36,089 nucleotides of DNA, taken from assembly GCA_035499655.1 (NCBI GenBank), contig DATJYL010000223.1, positions 1 to 36,089 on the forward strand, written 5' to 3'. A model generated the notes under the pieces. That model was not told where the DNA came from. It made no database searches and saw only the letters and a program-made list of their open reading frames with translations. Below are positions 7,681 through 31,196 of the stretch, in pieces (positions within the stretch are counted from its first letter, which is position 1; the number at the start of each line of letters is the position of its first letter). Origin of the DNA: Pirellulales bacterium. Its GTDB lineage: Bacteria > Planctomycetota > Planctomycetia > Pirellulales > JADZDJ01. Both the position numbers and the translations under genes were made by a program.

Positions 7681-7694
7681 TCCGGTGGATGGAG

Positions 7695-7757
7695 AATGAC
7701 CAATGACCAAACGGCCGGCGAGCATAACACTCATTGGTCATTGGGACTTGGTCATTC
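7695..7757. repeat. Paired heptamer repeat, TGACCAA type
   Basis: A TGACCAA tract at 7695-7710 is repeated inverted at 7731-7756 (TCATTGG TCATTGGGACTTGG TCATT), with a 20-base spacer. The element fills nearly the whole 78-base gap between the converging fucosidase and phosphohexomutase genes and can fold into a hairpin, so it may also act as a bidirectional transcription stop. There is no T-run. Confidence 0.8.
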
Positions 7758-7758
7758 C

Positions 7759-9720
7759 TCATTTGTCCGACTCGCTGGCGGCAAGCAAATTTTTCTCGAT
7801 GCTCGTCAATCGTACGGATAGCCGTTCTTTGGTGGCGACTAAATCGGCCGATTTCTCGGGGGGTTCGTAGGCAAACAGATAGAATTTCAGCTTGGGTTCC
7901 GTGCCGGAGGGGCGTACGGCAGCGCGATTGCCGGGCGGGTCGAGATCGAAAATCAACAAGTCGCTTGGCGGCACGTCGCCCAGCGTTTCCTGACCACTGA
8001 TCACCGACCACTGACCGCCATATTCTGCTTTCTGCTTTCTGCCTTCTGCCTTCGTGAGCACTTGTTGCCGCAAATAATCTCGCGCTTGCCGCACACTCAT
8101 GCCGCCCAATTGCCGGGGCGGATTGGTCCGCAGCCGCTGCATGACAGCCTGCATTTTCGCCAAACCGTCGGCGCCGGGAAGCGTGTGGTTGATGCTTTTT
8201 TCCTGGTGGCAGCCGTATTGCAAAAACAACATGTCGAGTTGCTGGTGCAACGTGCGGCCATGCGTTTTGCATTCGGCGGCCAGCTCGGCTAGTAGCATGG
8301 CTGCGATGGCGCCATCTTTATCGCGGACATACGTGCCGGCCAAATAACCGTGGGCCTCCTCAAAACCGAACACGAACTTATCCGGGCCGAGTTCGTCAAT
8401 TTTGCTGCCGATCCACTTGAAGCCTGTCAGTACGTCGCCATAAGCGCGAACGCCGAACCCTTCAGCCACGCGGCAAATCATGTCGCTGGTAACCAGTGTT
8501 TTGATGACGTAATGCTGCGACGTGAGTTGGCCGGATTGTTCCAGCCGCCGCAGCAAAAATTCGCCGAGGAGCGCGCCGATTTGATTGCCGGAAAGAGTGG
8601 ACCATGAGGAAGGGACGAGGGGTGAGGAGTGAGGGGTGATTGTTAATGGGGCGGCGCAGCCGATGCGGTCGGCATCAGGATCGCTGGCGAGAACGATGTC
8701 GGCGTTGCTGGTTTTGGCGTGTTCGATCAGCGTGTCGAACACCGCTGTGTTCTCAGGATTGGCCACGTGATTGGGCACATGCGGAAAATCGCCGTCGGGT
8801 GCGGCGTGCGGCTGATAGACTTCGACGTTTTGAAATCCGTCGGCCTGCAAGATCGGCAGCACTGAAGTCAAACCGACACCGTGCAGGGGAGAGTAGAGAA
8901 TTTTTAAATCACGTGAGCCACGCTTACTTTGGGCCAGCACGGCGGCGCGGTAGCCCGCGTCGCTTTCGGCCTGGCAGAATTGAATGCGGCCGGCGGAAAC
9001 CGCCTCGGCGAAGGACGTCCGTTTGATCGTTGTGACGCGGCCCACGCATTGAATTATGCCTTCGTCATGCGGCGCGCGCAATTGTCCGCCGGTGGACCAG
9101 AATGCTTTGATGGCGTTGTCGGACGGAGGGTTGTGGCTGGCGCTGATCATGATGCCGCACGCACAATGTCGGTTGCGCACAGTGAAGGAAAGTTCCGGCG
9201 TGGGGCGAAAGCCGTCGAGGAAAAGCACTTGGAAGCCGTTGGCGACCATGATTTCCGCGCTCAGTTCGGCGAATTGCCGTGAACGGTGGCGGGTGTCGTA
9301 GGCGATGGCGCAAGAGATGTCCGTGGTCCGTTGCCCGTGGTCCGTGGAATGGATGTTGGTCGTAGCAACTGACGACGGGCCACGGACTACGGACAAAACG
9401 TAATCCGCCAGGCCCTGCACGCTTTCACCCATCGTGCGATCGTTGATGGCATTGGTGCCGATGGGGTACATCCGTCCGCGACGGCCAGCGGTGCCGAACG
9501 GAATGACGGTCCAAAAAGCGTCGTCCAATTCGCGCCATTGTTGGGCCTGAATGTGCTCAAGAACTCGCGGCGCATAATCCGCATAGTGCGGCTTGGTGAG
9601 CCAAGTGCGGATGTTTTCGACCGCGCTGGCGGAAAGCTGGCCGGCGACTTGGGCAGATTTCAGCGCCGAAAGCGCGGCGTCGATTTGCGCGGCGTCAATG
9701 ACGGAAGCGGCAGCAGACAT
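7759..9720 (-). CDS. Alpha-D-phosphohexomutase (phosphoglucomutase/phosphomannomutase)
   Basis: This enzyme interconverts hexose 1- and 6-phosphates through a phosphoserine. All four active-site loops are present: SASHNP with the catalytic Ser near residue 195, the metal loop DPDADR near 350, the sugar loop GFEEAHG near 455, and the phosphate loop RPSGTEPK near 602. At 653 residues it is longer than usual. The excess is explained by three in-frame repeat tracts in loops: residues about 108-134 (VVRGPSS...TDHGQRTTD), 360-374 (TITPHSSPLVPSSWS) and 556-578 (EGRKQKAEYGGQWSVISGQ). The core motifs are intact, so I expect an active enzyme. It follows accD by 56 bases on the same strand and could feed glucose 1-phosphate to GlgC. 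Confidence 0.93.
   Translation of the reverse strand: MSAAASVIDAAQIDAALSALKSAQVAGQLSASAVENIRTWLTKPHYADYAPRVLEHIQAQQWRELDDAFWTVIPFGTAGRRGRMYPIGTNAINDRTMGESVQGLADYVLSVVRGPSSVATTNIHSTDHGQRTTDISCAIAYDTRHRSRQFAELSAEIMVANGFQVLFLDGFRPTPELSFTVRNRHCACGIMISASHNPPSDNAIKAFWSTGGQLRAPHDEGIIQCVGRVTTIKRTSFAEAVSAGRIQFCQAESDAGYRAAVLAQSKRGSRDLKILYSPLHGVGLTSVLPILQADGFQNVEVYQPHAAPDGDFPHVPNHVANPENTAVFDTLIEHAKTSNADIVLASDPDADRIGCAAPLTITPHSSPLVPSSWSTLSGNQIGALLGEFLLRRLEQSGQLTSQHYVIKTLVTSDMICRVAEGFGVRAYGDVLTGFKWIGSKIDELGPDKFVFGFEEAHGYLAGTYVRDKDGAIAAMLLAELAAECKTHGRTLHQQLDMLFLQYGCHQEKSINHTLPGADGLAKMQAVMQRLRTNPPRQLGGMSVRQARDYLRQQVLTKAEGRKQKAEYGGQWSVISGQETLGDVPPSDLLIFDLDPPGNRAAVRPSGTEPKLKFYLFAYEPPEKSADLVATKERLSVRLTSIEKNLLAASESDK
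7990..8052. repeat. In-gene heptamer tracts, TGACCAC and TGCTTTC types
   Basis: Two adjoining tracts lie inside the phosphohexomutase gene: TGACCACTGATCACCGACCAC at 7991-8011 continuing to 8017, and TTCTGCTTTCTGCTTTC extended to 8052 by two further TGCCTTC units. Both keep a period of about 7 bases and are read through in frame as a low-complexity loop (EGRKQKAE and GGQWSVISGQ). Confidence 0.75.
8601..8641. repeat. In-gene heptamer tract, GGTGAGG type
   Basis: A near-tandem purine tract (GAGGGGTGAGGAGTGAGGGG is not exact; the readable core is GGGGTGAGGAGTGAGGGGTG at 8619-8638) has a 7-base period and is translated in frame on the minus strand as TITPHSSPLVPSS. It sits in the variable loop between the DPDADR motif and LSGNQIGALL of the phosphohexomutase. 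Confidence 0.65.
9319..9395. repeat. In-gene paired heptamer repeat, GGACCAC type
   Basis: The left tract (TGTCCGTGGTCCGTTGCCCG, continuing to 9352) is matched inverted by the right tract at 9368-9394 (CTGACGACGGGCCACGGACT and following). The pair forms a dyad inside the phosphohexomutase reading frame. It is translated on the minus strand as a Ser/Thr/Asp/His-rich loop near residues 108-134. The element is complete, with two arms and a spacer, yet keeps the frame open. Confidence 0.78.
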
Positions 9721-19238: not shown

Positions 19239-19325
19239 GAATGACTAATGACCAAATCCCAATGATCAATGTTGGTTTCAATCCTTACTTTTCATTGGTC
19301 ATTGGTGCTTGGGCATTGGTCATTT
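19239..19325. repeat. Paired heptamer repeat, TGACCAA type
   Basis: GAATGACTAATGACCAAATC with its continuation to 19270 is matched inverted at 19290-19325 (TTTCATTGGTCATTGGTGCT and following). The pair fills the gap between the intrinsic terminator and the TSUP gene and reaches into it: the TGA stop of the TSUP gene (19320-19322, read on the minus strand) is part of a TGACCAA word. Confidence 0.82.
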
Positions 19326-20114
19326 TCCACTGAACTGCCGCCAGAAGTAATACGTCGCCAGGGAAAAGCCGATGACGACGATAATCCGCCGCACGACGAC
19401 TTTGTCGATTTTCTGCGCCAGCGTGGCCCCGACAAAGCCGCCGAGCATCGAACAGGCGATCATTGGGCCGGCCAGCGACCAATCGATTTCTCCGCGCGTC
19501 AAGAACACGGTGAGCGCCATGATATTGATGGCAAAGGCCAAGCAATTTTTTAGACCGTTCATTACGTGAATGTCGGCCAGGCCCATCAGGCCCAGCGCGC
19601 TGAGCATGAGAATGCCGATGCCGGCGCCGAAGTAGCCGCCGTAAATCGCCACGAAGAATTGAAACACGATGATCGCGATCAGCGTCCCGCCGTGCGGCTC
19701 GGCATGCGGCGCGCCAATGCCGGTCCAACGGGCAATTTGCGGTTGCAGCACGAACAGCACGGCCGCCGTCAAAATCAGCCACGGCACCAGCGCGCTGAAT
19801 TGATCGGGAAAGCCAACGACCAACCAGCCGCCGAGCAACCCGCCCAGCAAACTCGGCGGCAACAACCACTTGAGCCAGTGGCGCGAATGTTTGAGCTGGC
19901 TGCGATAACCCCAAGCGGCGGCGAAAATTCCAGGGATCAGCGCCATGGTGCTGGTTTGGTTGGCAACCACGTCGGCGTGTTTGTGATCGCCGAATTTACG
20001 CATCAGCACGGCCGTCAGCACGGGAAATGTCAGCAGCGTGCCGCCGCCGGCCACAGAATTTACCGCTCCGGCCGCCATCGCCGCACAGCATACTAAAATT
20101 ATTTCCCAATTCAT
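19320..20114 (-). CDS. TSUP family (TauE/SafE) membrane transporter
   Basis: The 264-residue protein belongs to the TauE/SafE (TSUP) family, thought to export sulfite, sulfoacetate or other organosulfur anions. It has about eight hydrophobic segments in two similar halves. The first begins with EIILVCCAAMAAGAVNSVAG and GGTLLTFPVL, the second with FQFFVAIYGGYFGAGIGILM; the GxVNSxxGGG and YGGYFGAGxG motifs mark the two halves. The start at ATG 20114 puts the first motif at the N-terminus; the frame stays open far upstream to 20582, but that part overlaps the next gene and is not credible. Substrate cannot be read. It faces the mechanosensitive channel gene and is divergent from the RNase HII homologue. 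Confidence 0.92.
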   Translation of the reverse strand: MNWEIILVCCAAMAAGAVNSVAGGGTLLTFPVLTAVLMRKFGDHKHADVVANQTSTMALIPGIFAAAWGYRSQLKHSRHWLKWLLPPSLLGGLLGGWLVVGFPDQFSALVPWLILTAAVLFVLQPQIARWTGIGAPHAEPHGGTLIAIIVFQFFVAIYGGYFGAGIGILMLSALGLMGLADIHVMNGLKNCLAFAINIMALTVFLTRGEIDWSLAGPMIACSMLGGFVGATLAQKIDKVVVRRIIVVIGFSLATYYFWRQFSGK

Positions 20115-24255: not shown

Positions 24256-24675
24256 ATGGCCAGCGATCAAGACGAGTTATATCAGGAACACATTCTCGAT
24301 CATTACGAGCGGCCCTATCATTGCGGCCATTGCCCGGCGGCCACGCATGCCCATGAAGACGACAACCCGTTGTGCGGCGACGTAGTGCGGGTGGAGTTGA
24401 CGATTGCCGATAATCGCGTCCGCCAGGCGTGGTTCAACGGCAGCGGCTGCTGCATCAGCCAGGCGGCGGCCTCGATGCTGATGCAGGCGGTCGAAGGCAA
24501 GTCGCTGGCAGAAATTCAGCATTTTAGCGGCGAAGATATGCTCCGTTTGTTTGCGGCGCGGCTGACGCCCAATCGTCAAAAATGCTGTCTTCTCGGTTGG
24601 CGCGTGCTGCAAAGCGCCTTGTTTTCACCCCGACCGTCCAATCACGGGAATGCGGATGAGCACCAAACCGCTTGA
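24256..24675 (+). CDS. sufU: SufU/IscU-type Fe-S cluster assembly protein
   Basis: SufU takes sulfur from the cysteine desulfurase SufS and acts in Fe-S cluster assembly. The 139-residue protein has the conserved ligands: C40 and D42 in NPLCGD, C65/C66 in GSGCCISQAAASML, and C110/C111 in RQKCCLLGW. The opening LYQEHILDHYERP is family-typical. The spacing between the second and third Cys motifs is about 44 residues, shorter than in Gram-positive SufU, where an insertion separates them. Two of the Cys sites are doublets, which is unusual. The coding region overlaps the start of sufS, showing translational coupling. No sufBCD genes are present in the window. Confidence 0.93.
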   Translation: MASDQDELYQEHILDHYERPYHCGHCPAATHAHEDDNPLCGDVVRVELTIADNRVRQAWFNGSGCCISQAAASMLMQAVEGKSLAEIQHFSGEDMLRLFAARLTPNRQKCCLLGWRVLQSALFSPRPSNHGNADEHQTA

Positions 24676-25933
24676 AACCATCGACGCGAAGCGGCTGCGG
24701 CAGGATTTTCCGATCCTCACGGCCCGCCGTCCCGATGGCAAGCAGCTTGTGTATCTCGACAACGCCGCCAGCACCCAGCGCCCGCGCCAAGTGATTGACG
24801 TCATGGTGGACGTGTACGCGGCCCGTTACGCCAATGTGCATCGCGGCATTCACTGGCTGAGTGAACAAGCGACCGATTTGTACGAGGCGGCCCGCGAAAA
24901 AATTCGCGCATTTCTTAATGCCCCGGCGCTGGTAGAGGTGATCTTCACGCATGGCACGACCGAAAGCATCAATCTGGTGGCACGAAGTTGGGGCGACGCC
25001 AATTTGAAGACGGGCGACGAGATTTTGCTCACCGAGTTGGAGCACCATTCCAATATTGTCCCCTGGCAGCAATTGGCCGCCCGCACCGGCGCGACTGTCC
25101 GGTGGCTACCGATCAGCGATGACGGTCGGCTACGGCTTGACTTGCTGGGCGACCTGCTCGGCAAGCGCACCAAAATGGTGGCCGTGGCCGGCGTTTCGAA
25201 CGTGTTGGGCACGATCAATCCTGTGACCGAAATTGCCCAGCGCGCGCATGCCGCCGGGGCGGTAATCCTGGTCGACGCCGCACAATGGGCCCCGCATTTG
25301 CCGCTCGATGTTCAAGCGCTGGGGGCCGATTTCGTCGCCTTTAGCGGGCATAAAATGCTGGGACCAACCGGTGTGGGTGTGCTGTGGGGCCGGCGAGAAT
25401 TGCTGGAGACCATGCCGTCGTTTCTCGGCGGTGGCGGCATGATTCGGCGCGTTCGCAAAGACGGTTTTGAGCCGGCCGAACTGCCCGCCAAGCTCGAAGC
25501 CGGCACGCCGCCGATTGTGGAGGCGATTGGGTTGGGCGCGGCGATCGATTATCTCAACGCCATTGGACTGAAAAACATTGCCCGCCACGAACAATTGCTC
25601 ACCCAGCGAGCTGTAGGAGTGTTGTCCGCGATCAAAGACGTCCGCCTGCTCGGCCCGCGGATAGAGACAACTGACCACGGACCACGGACCACGGACCATT
25701 CCGGCATCGTCAGTTTCACGGTCGAGGGCATTCATGCCCATGACGTGGCGCAACTGCTCGATCGGCATGGCATTGCCGTTCGGGCCGGTCATCACTGCGC
25801 CATGCCGCTGCACCAACGGTTGGGCCTAACCGCCACCGCGCGGGCCAGTTTTTATTTTTACAACACACCGGCCGAAGTCGATGCATTGGCGACGGCGCTT
25901 GAGGATGCAAAGCGGGTATTTAGAAGAAGGTAG
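24650..25933 (+). CDS. sufS: Cysteine desulfurase, SufS type
   Basis: SufS is a PLP enzyme that takes sulfur from cysteine as a persulfide and passes it to SufU. PLP-site Lys K235 is in SGHKMLGPTG, the active Cys C383 in AGHHCAMPLHQ (the short-loop type of SufS), and YLDNAASTQRP and THGTTESINLV are the substrate and PLP-phosphate segments. Length 427. It overlaps sufU by 26 bases; ATG 24656 is an alternative start. Near residues 340-351 the reading frame contains a heptamer repeat tract (ETTDHGPRTTDHS) in a loop before GIVSF, absent from relatives as I know them. The stop is 15 bases from the convergent DUF1501 gene. Confidence 0.95.
   Translation: MRMSTKPLETIDAKRLRQDFPILTARRPDGKQLVYLDNAASTQRPRQVIDVMVDVYAARYANVHRGIHWLSEQATDLYEAAREKIRAFLNAPALVEVIFTHGTTESINLVARSWGDANLKTGDEILLTELEHHSNIVPWQQLAARTGATVRWLPISDDGRLRLDLLGDLLGKRTKMVAVAGVSNVLGTINPVTEIAQRAHAAGAVILVDAAQWAPHLPLDVQALGADFVAFSGHKMLGPTGVGVLWGRRELLETMPSFLGGGGMIRRVRKDGFEPAELPAKLEAGTPPIVEAIGLGAAIDYLNAIGLKNIARHEQLLTQRAVGVLSAIKDVRLLGPRIETTDHGPRTTDHSGIVSFTVEGIHAHDVAQLLDRHGIAVRAGHHCAMPLHQRLGLTATARASFYFYNTPAEVDALATALEDAKRVFRRR
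25669..25699. repeat. In-gene heptamer tract, GGACCAC type, single arm
   Basis: AACTGACCACGGACCACGGA continuing to 25699 is three and a half copies of a 7-base unit. It is read in frame inside sufS as TTDHGPRTTDH. The same word is found in the phosphohexomutase gene at 9319-9395. No inverted partner is visible. Confidence 0.78.
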
Positions 25934-27271: not shown

Positions 27272-27376
27272 GGTGTCTGGTGGTATGGTGTCTGGTGGTA
27301 TGGTGCCGGAGCCGGGTTGAATTTCTTCTTACCAGGCACTAGACGCCAGACACTAGACACCTAATCATCAGACACT
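27272..27376. repeat. Paired repeat, GTGTCTGG/AGACACT type
   Basis: GGTGTCTGGTGGTATGGTGT and its continuation to 27304 (a 16-base unit twice) is matched inverted at 27330-27376, where the words CAGACACTAGACACC and CCAGGCACTAGACGCC occur. The pair fills the 119-base gap between the DUF1549/1553 stop and the DUF1501 start almost end to end. Confidence 0.78.
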
Positions 27377-31087: not shown

Positions 31088-31196
31088 GAATTTCGAATGT
31101 CGAATGAATGACCAATGACCAAATCCCAATGACCAAATAGGTTGAGTCTCAACCATTTTTCATTAGTCATTCGAGCTTAGGCATTCGTCATTTGGA
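31088..31196. repeat. Paired heptamer repeat, TGACCAA type, with TTCGAATG words
   Basis: The left tract (GAATTTCGAATGTCGAATGA followed by two TGACCAA words, to 31138) is matched inverted at 31157-31196 (TTTTTCATTAGTCATTCGAG and following). Each arm combines a TGACCAA part and a GAATG part. It lies in the promoter region of the GlsB-like gene. A separate 9-base inverted pair follows at 31213-31264. Confidence 0.8.

Follow-up and report, generated by a model that had tools for sequence, protein, structure and literature searches.

The inverted-pair heptamer element at positions 9319 to 9394 on the minus strand of the window, the whole stretch of 36,089 nucleotides that was analysed, is considered to be a copy of a non-autonomous hairpin repeat that is dispersed in Planctomycetota, lying in frame in an exposed loop of a phosphohexomutase (probability about 0.7). 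The repeat would have the form 5'-(GTCNGTN)n - spacer - (NACNGAC)n-3', with the GTC arm always first. The element was characterized by sequence comparison, RNA folding, AlphaFold modeling and a covariance model (R1).

The element is 76 nt long and is composed of a 29-nt arm, an 18-nt spacer and a second 29-nt arm. It is a near-perfect inverted pair, with GTCNGTN heptamers in one arm and inverted heptamers in the other. On the plus strand, 9319-9347 reads GTCCGTGGTCCGTTGCCCGTGGTCCGTGG and 9366-9394 reads CAACTGACGACGGGCCACGGACTACGGAC; the coding strand (minus) is GTCCGTAGTCCGTGGCCCGTCGTCAGTTG-CTACGACCAACATCCATT-CCACGGACCACGGGCAACGGACCACGGAC. On the coding strand, the 5' arm (9366-9394) contains four heptamers, GTCCGTA, GTCCGTG, GCCCGTC and GTCAGTT, followed by G, and the 3' arm (9319-9347) contains four heptamers, CCACGGA, CCACGGG, CAACGGA and CCACGGA, followed by C. 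No second full copy with the spacer (9348-9365) was found. The predicted fold of the element has an energy of -38.4 kcal/mol, against -23.4 +/- 3.3 for shuffled sequences (z = -4.6), and none of 200 shuffles folded as well; pairing in the hairpin is interrupted about once per heptamer. Direct reading, the intact ORF and this fold confirm the preliminary description of a complete inverted pair inside a coding region. It had been placed at 9319-9395; the start is correct, and the end lies one base earlier, at 9394. R1 matches the window copy at 9322-9396, a copy that belonged to its training set. An RNA-family search of the window returned no match at the element and a single match, a tRNA, elsewhere. 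A plasmid search with a peptide gave 0 matches.

The host gene (7759-9720, minus strand) encodes a 653-aa phosphohexomutase of the phosphoglucomutase/phosphomannomutase superfamily, assigned with Pfam and Foldseek. The ORF has 653 codons and no internal stop. Phosphoglucomutase domains I-III (PF02878, PF02879 and PF02880) are found in one frame in the later part of the ORF, and the best Foldseek matches are 3olp and 2fuv. The four active-site motifs, SASHNPP, DPDADR, EEAHG and RPSGTEP, are present together with the three domains as expected for the superfamily, and all are read in the frame of the element, as had been proposed for the four catalytic loops.

The element (site A) corresponds to residues 109-134, a surface loop between a helix (94-118) and a strand (136-141). 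Two other loops of the enzyme also contain heptamer arrays. Site B (8610-8644, minus strand; residues 359-372) is a second intragenic array, of the CCCTCAC type, and site C (7989-8057, minus strand; residues 555-577) has GGCAGAA-type and then GGTCAGT-type heptamers. The AlphaFold2 model, built from an alignment of the window protein and 41 homologues, has a mean pLDDT of 89.4 and a pTM of 0.90. Besides the termini, confidence is lowest at residues 121-131, 361-370 and 561-570, which are the three repeat-derived inserts; the mean pLDDT is 62 at residues 361-370 (site B) and 50 at residues 561-570 (site C). In this model, the product of site A appears to be a disordered, solvent-exposed loop of ~25 residues.

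The comparison drew on searches of two relatives from the same family and of 97 genomes from the order, and on a further 80 named loci. Nearly all of these loci are planctomycete records, many of them labelled Pirellulales, the order to which the window's homologues point. Homologues free of the insert, such as L012 and L047, have a 30-nt loop between ...ADYV and (S)CAIAYDTRH. The window gene has 81 nt in that slot, for a net increase of 51 nt (17 codons), and the flanks match to the codon. The sequence of the element itself is absent from the relatives. The earlier argument that a tolerated insertion must total a multiple of 3 is sound and agrees with this gain. The loop has the ordinary length of 9-14 residues in 85 homologues. 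Longer loops are seen in the window's family and in L060/L190, L064, L136, L146, L167, L168 and L179. Heptamer arrays are not obvious in the loop DNA of L064 and L136, or in the other two inserts of L146.

The same slot contains different repeats in different relatives. The orthologue in a genome of the same genus (G001) is 79% identical, and it has a different dispersed palindrome in the slot, with matching flanks. This palindrome, TTTAGCCCCCGGYGANTCRCYGGGRGC (CCCCCGGCGANTCGCCGGGGG), is present in both the orthologue and its paralogue. Its 16-nt core has five exact copies in the genome, one of them after a gene and followed by a T-run. The reading of the resulting AYLAPGES loop as ordinary protein sequence was rejected, since the sequence belongs to a dispersed palindrome that also occurs in this terminator-like position. 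In another genus (G002), a paralogue (L010) has a GGTCAGT-type heptamer hairpin at the same codon as site A. The paralogue in the window's own genome (G000) has CCCTCAC arrays in the slot, and L060/L190 has a long REP-like palindrome there. The heptamer arrays at sites B and C also differ among relatives. Thus, the same enzyme loops are used by several repeat families, and tolerance of these loops is the simplest reason.

At site A the insert took the place of the ancestral loop instead of just splitting it; there is no clean empty site, and neither a target-site duplication nor a pair of filled and empty strains was seen. Of the active insertion with selection suggested earlier, only purifying selection against frameshifts and stops is supported. 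A clean insertion is not, given the replaced loop and the other repeat in the same-genus orthologue.

The position of the inserts bears on whether selection acts on the loop as protein, with a Ser/Thr/Asp-rich disordered insert tuning the enzyme or a partner and repeats serving as raw material. All three internal low-confidence regions are repeat-derived, and inserts occupy the same sites in both paralogues of the window's family, as this explanation expects. However, recurrence of sites is equally predicted by tolerance, the insert sequences are completely different between orthologues, and short loops suffice in most homologues across the order. Such selection is unlikely. An assembly error or chance is very improbable: the contig is a draft, but the ORF is intact, and a like element recurs at this codon in G002 and also in many genomes that were assembled independently.

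The arm order indicates that the window element belongs to a discrete family. Among close GTCNGTN pairs in 1.24 Mb, the GTC arm comes first in 18 of 18, and in 50 of 50 distinct pairs once more loci are included. The first 18 are the cleaner test, because a model trained on pairs of this kind was used to retrieve the later loci. Random placement would mix the arm orders. In the consensus, GTC and GT are paired and heptamer positions 4 and 7 are free. At arm position 4, 39 of 78 are complementary against 34 expected (p = 0.14), and this lack of significant covariation indicates that structural selection does not hold the arms together there. Solo GTCNGTN arrays carry no information (68 matches versus 67 in shuffled sequence).

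The model R1 was built from 12 copies and used at a threshold of E <= 1e-4. It finds copies outside the training set in other families, with E-values (which are rough) down to 1e-17. Positive genomes are 43 of the 94 sampled from the order, in a patchy distribution, and 13 of 78 others in the phylum. Copies are ~50-120 nt long with spacers that vary from copy to copy, and sites are usually matched on both strands. Some genomes have dozens of copies and close relatives have zero, as do many genomes, where all counts are lower bounds from the few candidates scored. In the window's own genome, the arms of the element are found again elsewhere (best E = 4.5e-6); searches with the element there yielded single arms almost exclusively, and no other copy at full length. 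A classical MITE with conserved internal sequence was rejected on these grounds, as the spacers differ and a second full-length copy was not found. Long hairpins of a related word, GGTTAGT, are observed at L264, L265 and L268 in a genome of another family (G006). These hairpins suggest that the architecture is common to several heptamer words.

Other members of the family are also located in genes. In G006, 7 of 19 inspected copies lie within predicted genes, mostly between domains, with peptides such as SVVRGPSSVATDDGQLTTDN. By Pfam, three of them are between Clp_N and ThiD2-ThiE, between a protein kinase and a WD40 propeller, and before an outer-membrane efflux (OEP) domain. Most copies in the genome of the window itself lie outside genes. 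Since such repeats are mostly outside genes, and the element is here in frame and absent from relatives, a noncoding repeat appears to have turned into coding sequence, in agreement with the preliminary description.

The unit itself determines how a copy can be read. As 7 and 3 are coprime, a tandem 7-mer gives one cyclic heptapeptide in all three frames. GTCCGTG gives VRGPWSV in every frame and TDHGPRT on the opposite strand, and the GTCCGT form is stop-free on both strands. GTCAGTG gives H*PLTTD on the opposite strand; GTCAGT places TGA in the opposite arm. Intragenic copies are richer in the stop-free letter (C-arm G:T of 21:6 versus 48:42, p = 0.027) and have more open frames (p = 0.023), in small tests with 8 intragenic elements whose units are not independent within an element. 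This bias is as expected from purifying selection. Because of these frame and stop properties of the unit, intragenic copies would be tolerated if they contain few stops, add up to a multiple of 3 and lie in a loop or an inter-domain linker. A wider reading is tentative: a phylum-wide mobile hairpin, kept stop-poor in either orientation (in any frame for GTCCGT) by its 7-nt unit and fixed arm polarity, might repeatedly supply disordered loops and linkers and be adapted to intragenic life. The peptides would then be SVVRGP.. or TDHGPRT.., depending on orientation.

Heptamer arrays of several types are found elsewhere in the window. A GGACCAC array (25662-25703, plus strand) lies in frame in a class-V aminotransferase (SufS-like) gene (24650-25933), with a net gain of 27 nt relative to G002 (LLGPRIETTDHGPRTTDHSGIVSF versus LLGPSPEHKSGIVSF in G002). 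A hairpin with TGACCAA heptamer arms (7690-7770) is located between the convergent 3' ends of the phosphohexomutase gene and the neighboring plus-strand gene, and one with TGACCAA-like arms (19240-19330) between other convergent genes. Short tandem repeats of 15 and 14 nt are present at 27272-27305 and 31112-31138 (GGTGTCTGGTGGTAT; CCAATGACCAAATC).

The own-genome sample of 857 kb (0.86 Mb, about 19% of the genome) contains 58 period-7 arrays. In a content-blind choice of 675 kb, 20 strict period-7 arrays were found, against 0-3 for periods 5, 6, 8-11 and 13. Genes were called on the sampled contigs with a home-made caller using a simple dicodon model, and ~82% of the sample is coding. Fourteen arrays are well inside genes, nine at edges and 35 between genes, fractions that are approximate because some contigs were picked for holding arrays. 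The two phosphohexomutase paralogues account for six of these 14 intragenic arrays. An inverted partner within 150 nt accompanies 12 of 58 arrays (control ~1%) and a direct partner 4 of 58. Heptamers other than GTCNGTN are mostly single arrays. One contig (L031, G000:C11) is all N and was left out of the counts.

Several further repeats were observed. At L095 (2886-2969), GGCAGAA and CCTGCCG arrays lie in frame within an ORF of 353 codons, whose contig also contains the phosphohexomutase paralogue. At L083 (13054-13130; also L238 and G000:C29 about 23100), a heptamer array makes up most of the leader before an GFTLVELLVVIAIIGI prepilin cleavage motif; judging from the sequence, repeat DNA may encode a pilin-type leader peptide there. 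Facing GACTAGC-type arrays are about 420 nt apart at L029 (7973-8454), and inverted AGGGCGC arrays are about 400 nt apart within one large predicted gene at L087 (1309-1776). A different repeat type in the same genome, a 49-nt inverted repeat with a period of about 8 (ACCACGGAGACACAGAGGCACAGAG..., 41/49 paired), is found at L030 (5535-5680).

Arrays of this kind could form at their present sites through replication slippage and template switching at hairpins, in the manner of long simple-sequence repeats, in loops that tolerate growth and with no transposition. The many different heptamers, mostly solitary rather than paired, are consistent with this, as are the different heptamers in the same loop of orthologues. 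According to PMC4679880, which cites Mrazek 2007, the long repeats of many bacteria are most often heptamers. However, slippage does not predict a single word, GTCNGTN, across families and classes of the phylum with the arm order fixed, nor dozens of copies in one genome and none in its relatives. Slippage is a possible but doubtful origin for the window element, and solitary arrays of other words could come from it.

Intergenic arrays avoid divergent promoter regions (1/34, p = 0.0008). Together with similar hairpins at convergent gene ends and the strong predicted fold, this would fit a hairpin acting in mRNA, in pausing or stability, whose coding position is incidental. On the other hand, arm position 4 is without covariation, and the G001 insert at the same site folds weakly (z = -0.8). 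A role in mRNA is quite improbable.

For a dispersed hairpin repeat, copies would arise by insertion in trans, possibly carried by a Y1/HUH transposase acting on hairpins, and the loop at site A would be near-neutral. Y1_Tnp genes are present in 42 of 43 element-positive and 27 of 51 negative genomes (p = 3e-7), and the association is also seen in genomes of at least 4.5 Mb (p = 0.0008), both values being uncorrected for kinship. Given genome size, the partial rank correlation is 0.48; the association is partly genome size. No GTCNGTN hairpin flanks the six Y1 genes of G000 within about 1.5 kb on each side. Among its three strongest Y1_Tnp genes, two have inverted repeats of their own.

In-frame palindromic insertions are best known from Rickettsia, and the planctomycete family, which spans many families of one order and beyond, appears to be independent of them. 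The grammar of its unit predicts which of its copies are readable. The window enzyme, with several repeat types in three loops, and its relatives, with other repeats in those slots, together form a natural experiment: they bear on the way noncoding repeats turn into protein sequence and on which loops accept them. It follows that some planctomycete linker peptides are repeat DNA and not conserved domains.

Searches of the open-licence literature gave no account of a polar heptamer hairpin family from Planctomycetota. Heptanucleotide repeats include cyanobacterial STRR, GGGAATC of Xanthomonas and Nostoc, and TAACTGA of Beggiatoaceae (PMC4692102, PMC4679880). The planctomycete repeats resemble STRR/LSSR in their tandem 7-nt units, mainly intergenic location and several words per genome. 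STRR/LSSR are reported as direct arrays, whereas GTCNGTN forms polar inverted pairs, also within loops of conserved enzymes. Enterobacterial RU-1, RU-2 and RU-3 (ERIC-type MITEs) are small mobile repeats whose open frames are fused to genes (PMC2759123), but they differ in having 103-168 bp units with conserved internal sequence.

Rickettsia palindromic elements (RPEs) are dispersed palindromes in frame in unrelated protein genes and in spacers; their length is about 105-150 bp, and the peptide they encode is conserved (PMC10969869, PMC2229807). Planctomycete copies are likewise in frame in unrelated protein genes. They differ in their phylum, the 76-nt size, the 7-nt units and the unrelated spacers, the unit being compared by length alone. 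REPs have been reported within genes, and also at one shared site across recB orthologues (PMC3733652, PMC3116915). As in REPIN/REP-RAYT systems, the planctomycete repeats are dispersed inverted pairs that form hairpins, mainly extragenic in tandem or convergent spacers, and co-occur with Y1 genes, at the genome level only. Unlike those systems, they are not adjacent to Y1 genes, and their arms are heptamer arrays of variable length instead of one fixed REP palindrome. The best reading is that the element works like a REPIN or an RPE and differs from both in the tested features; membership of either family is not claimed.
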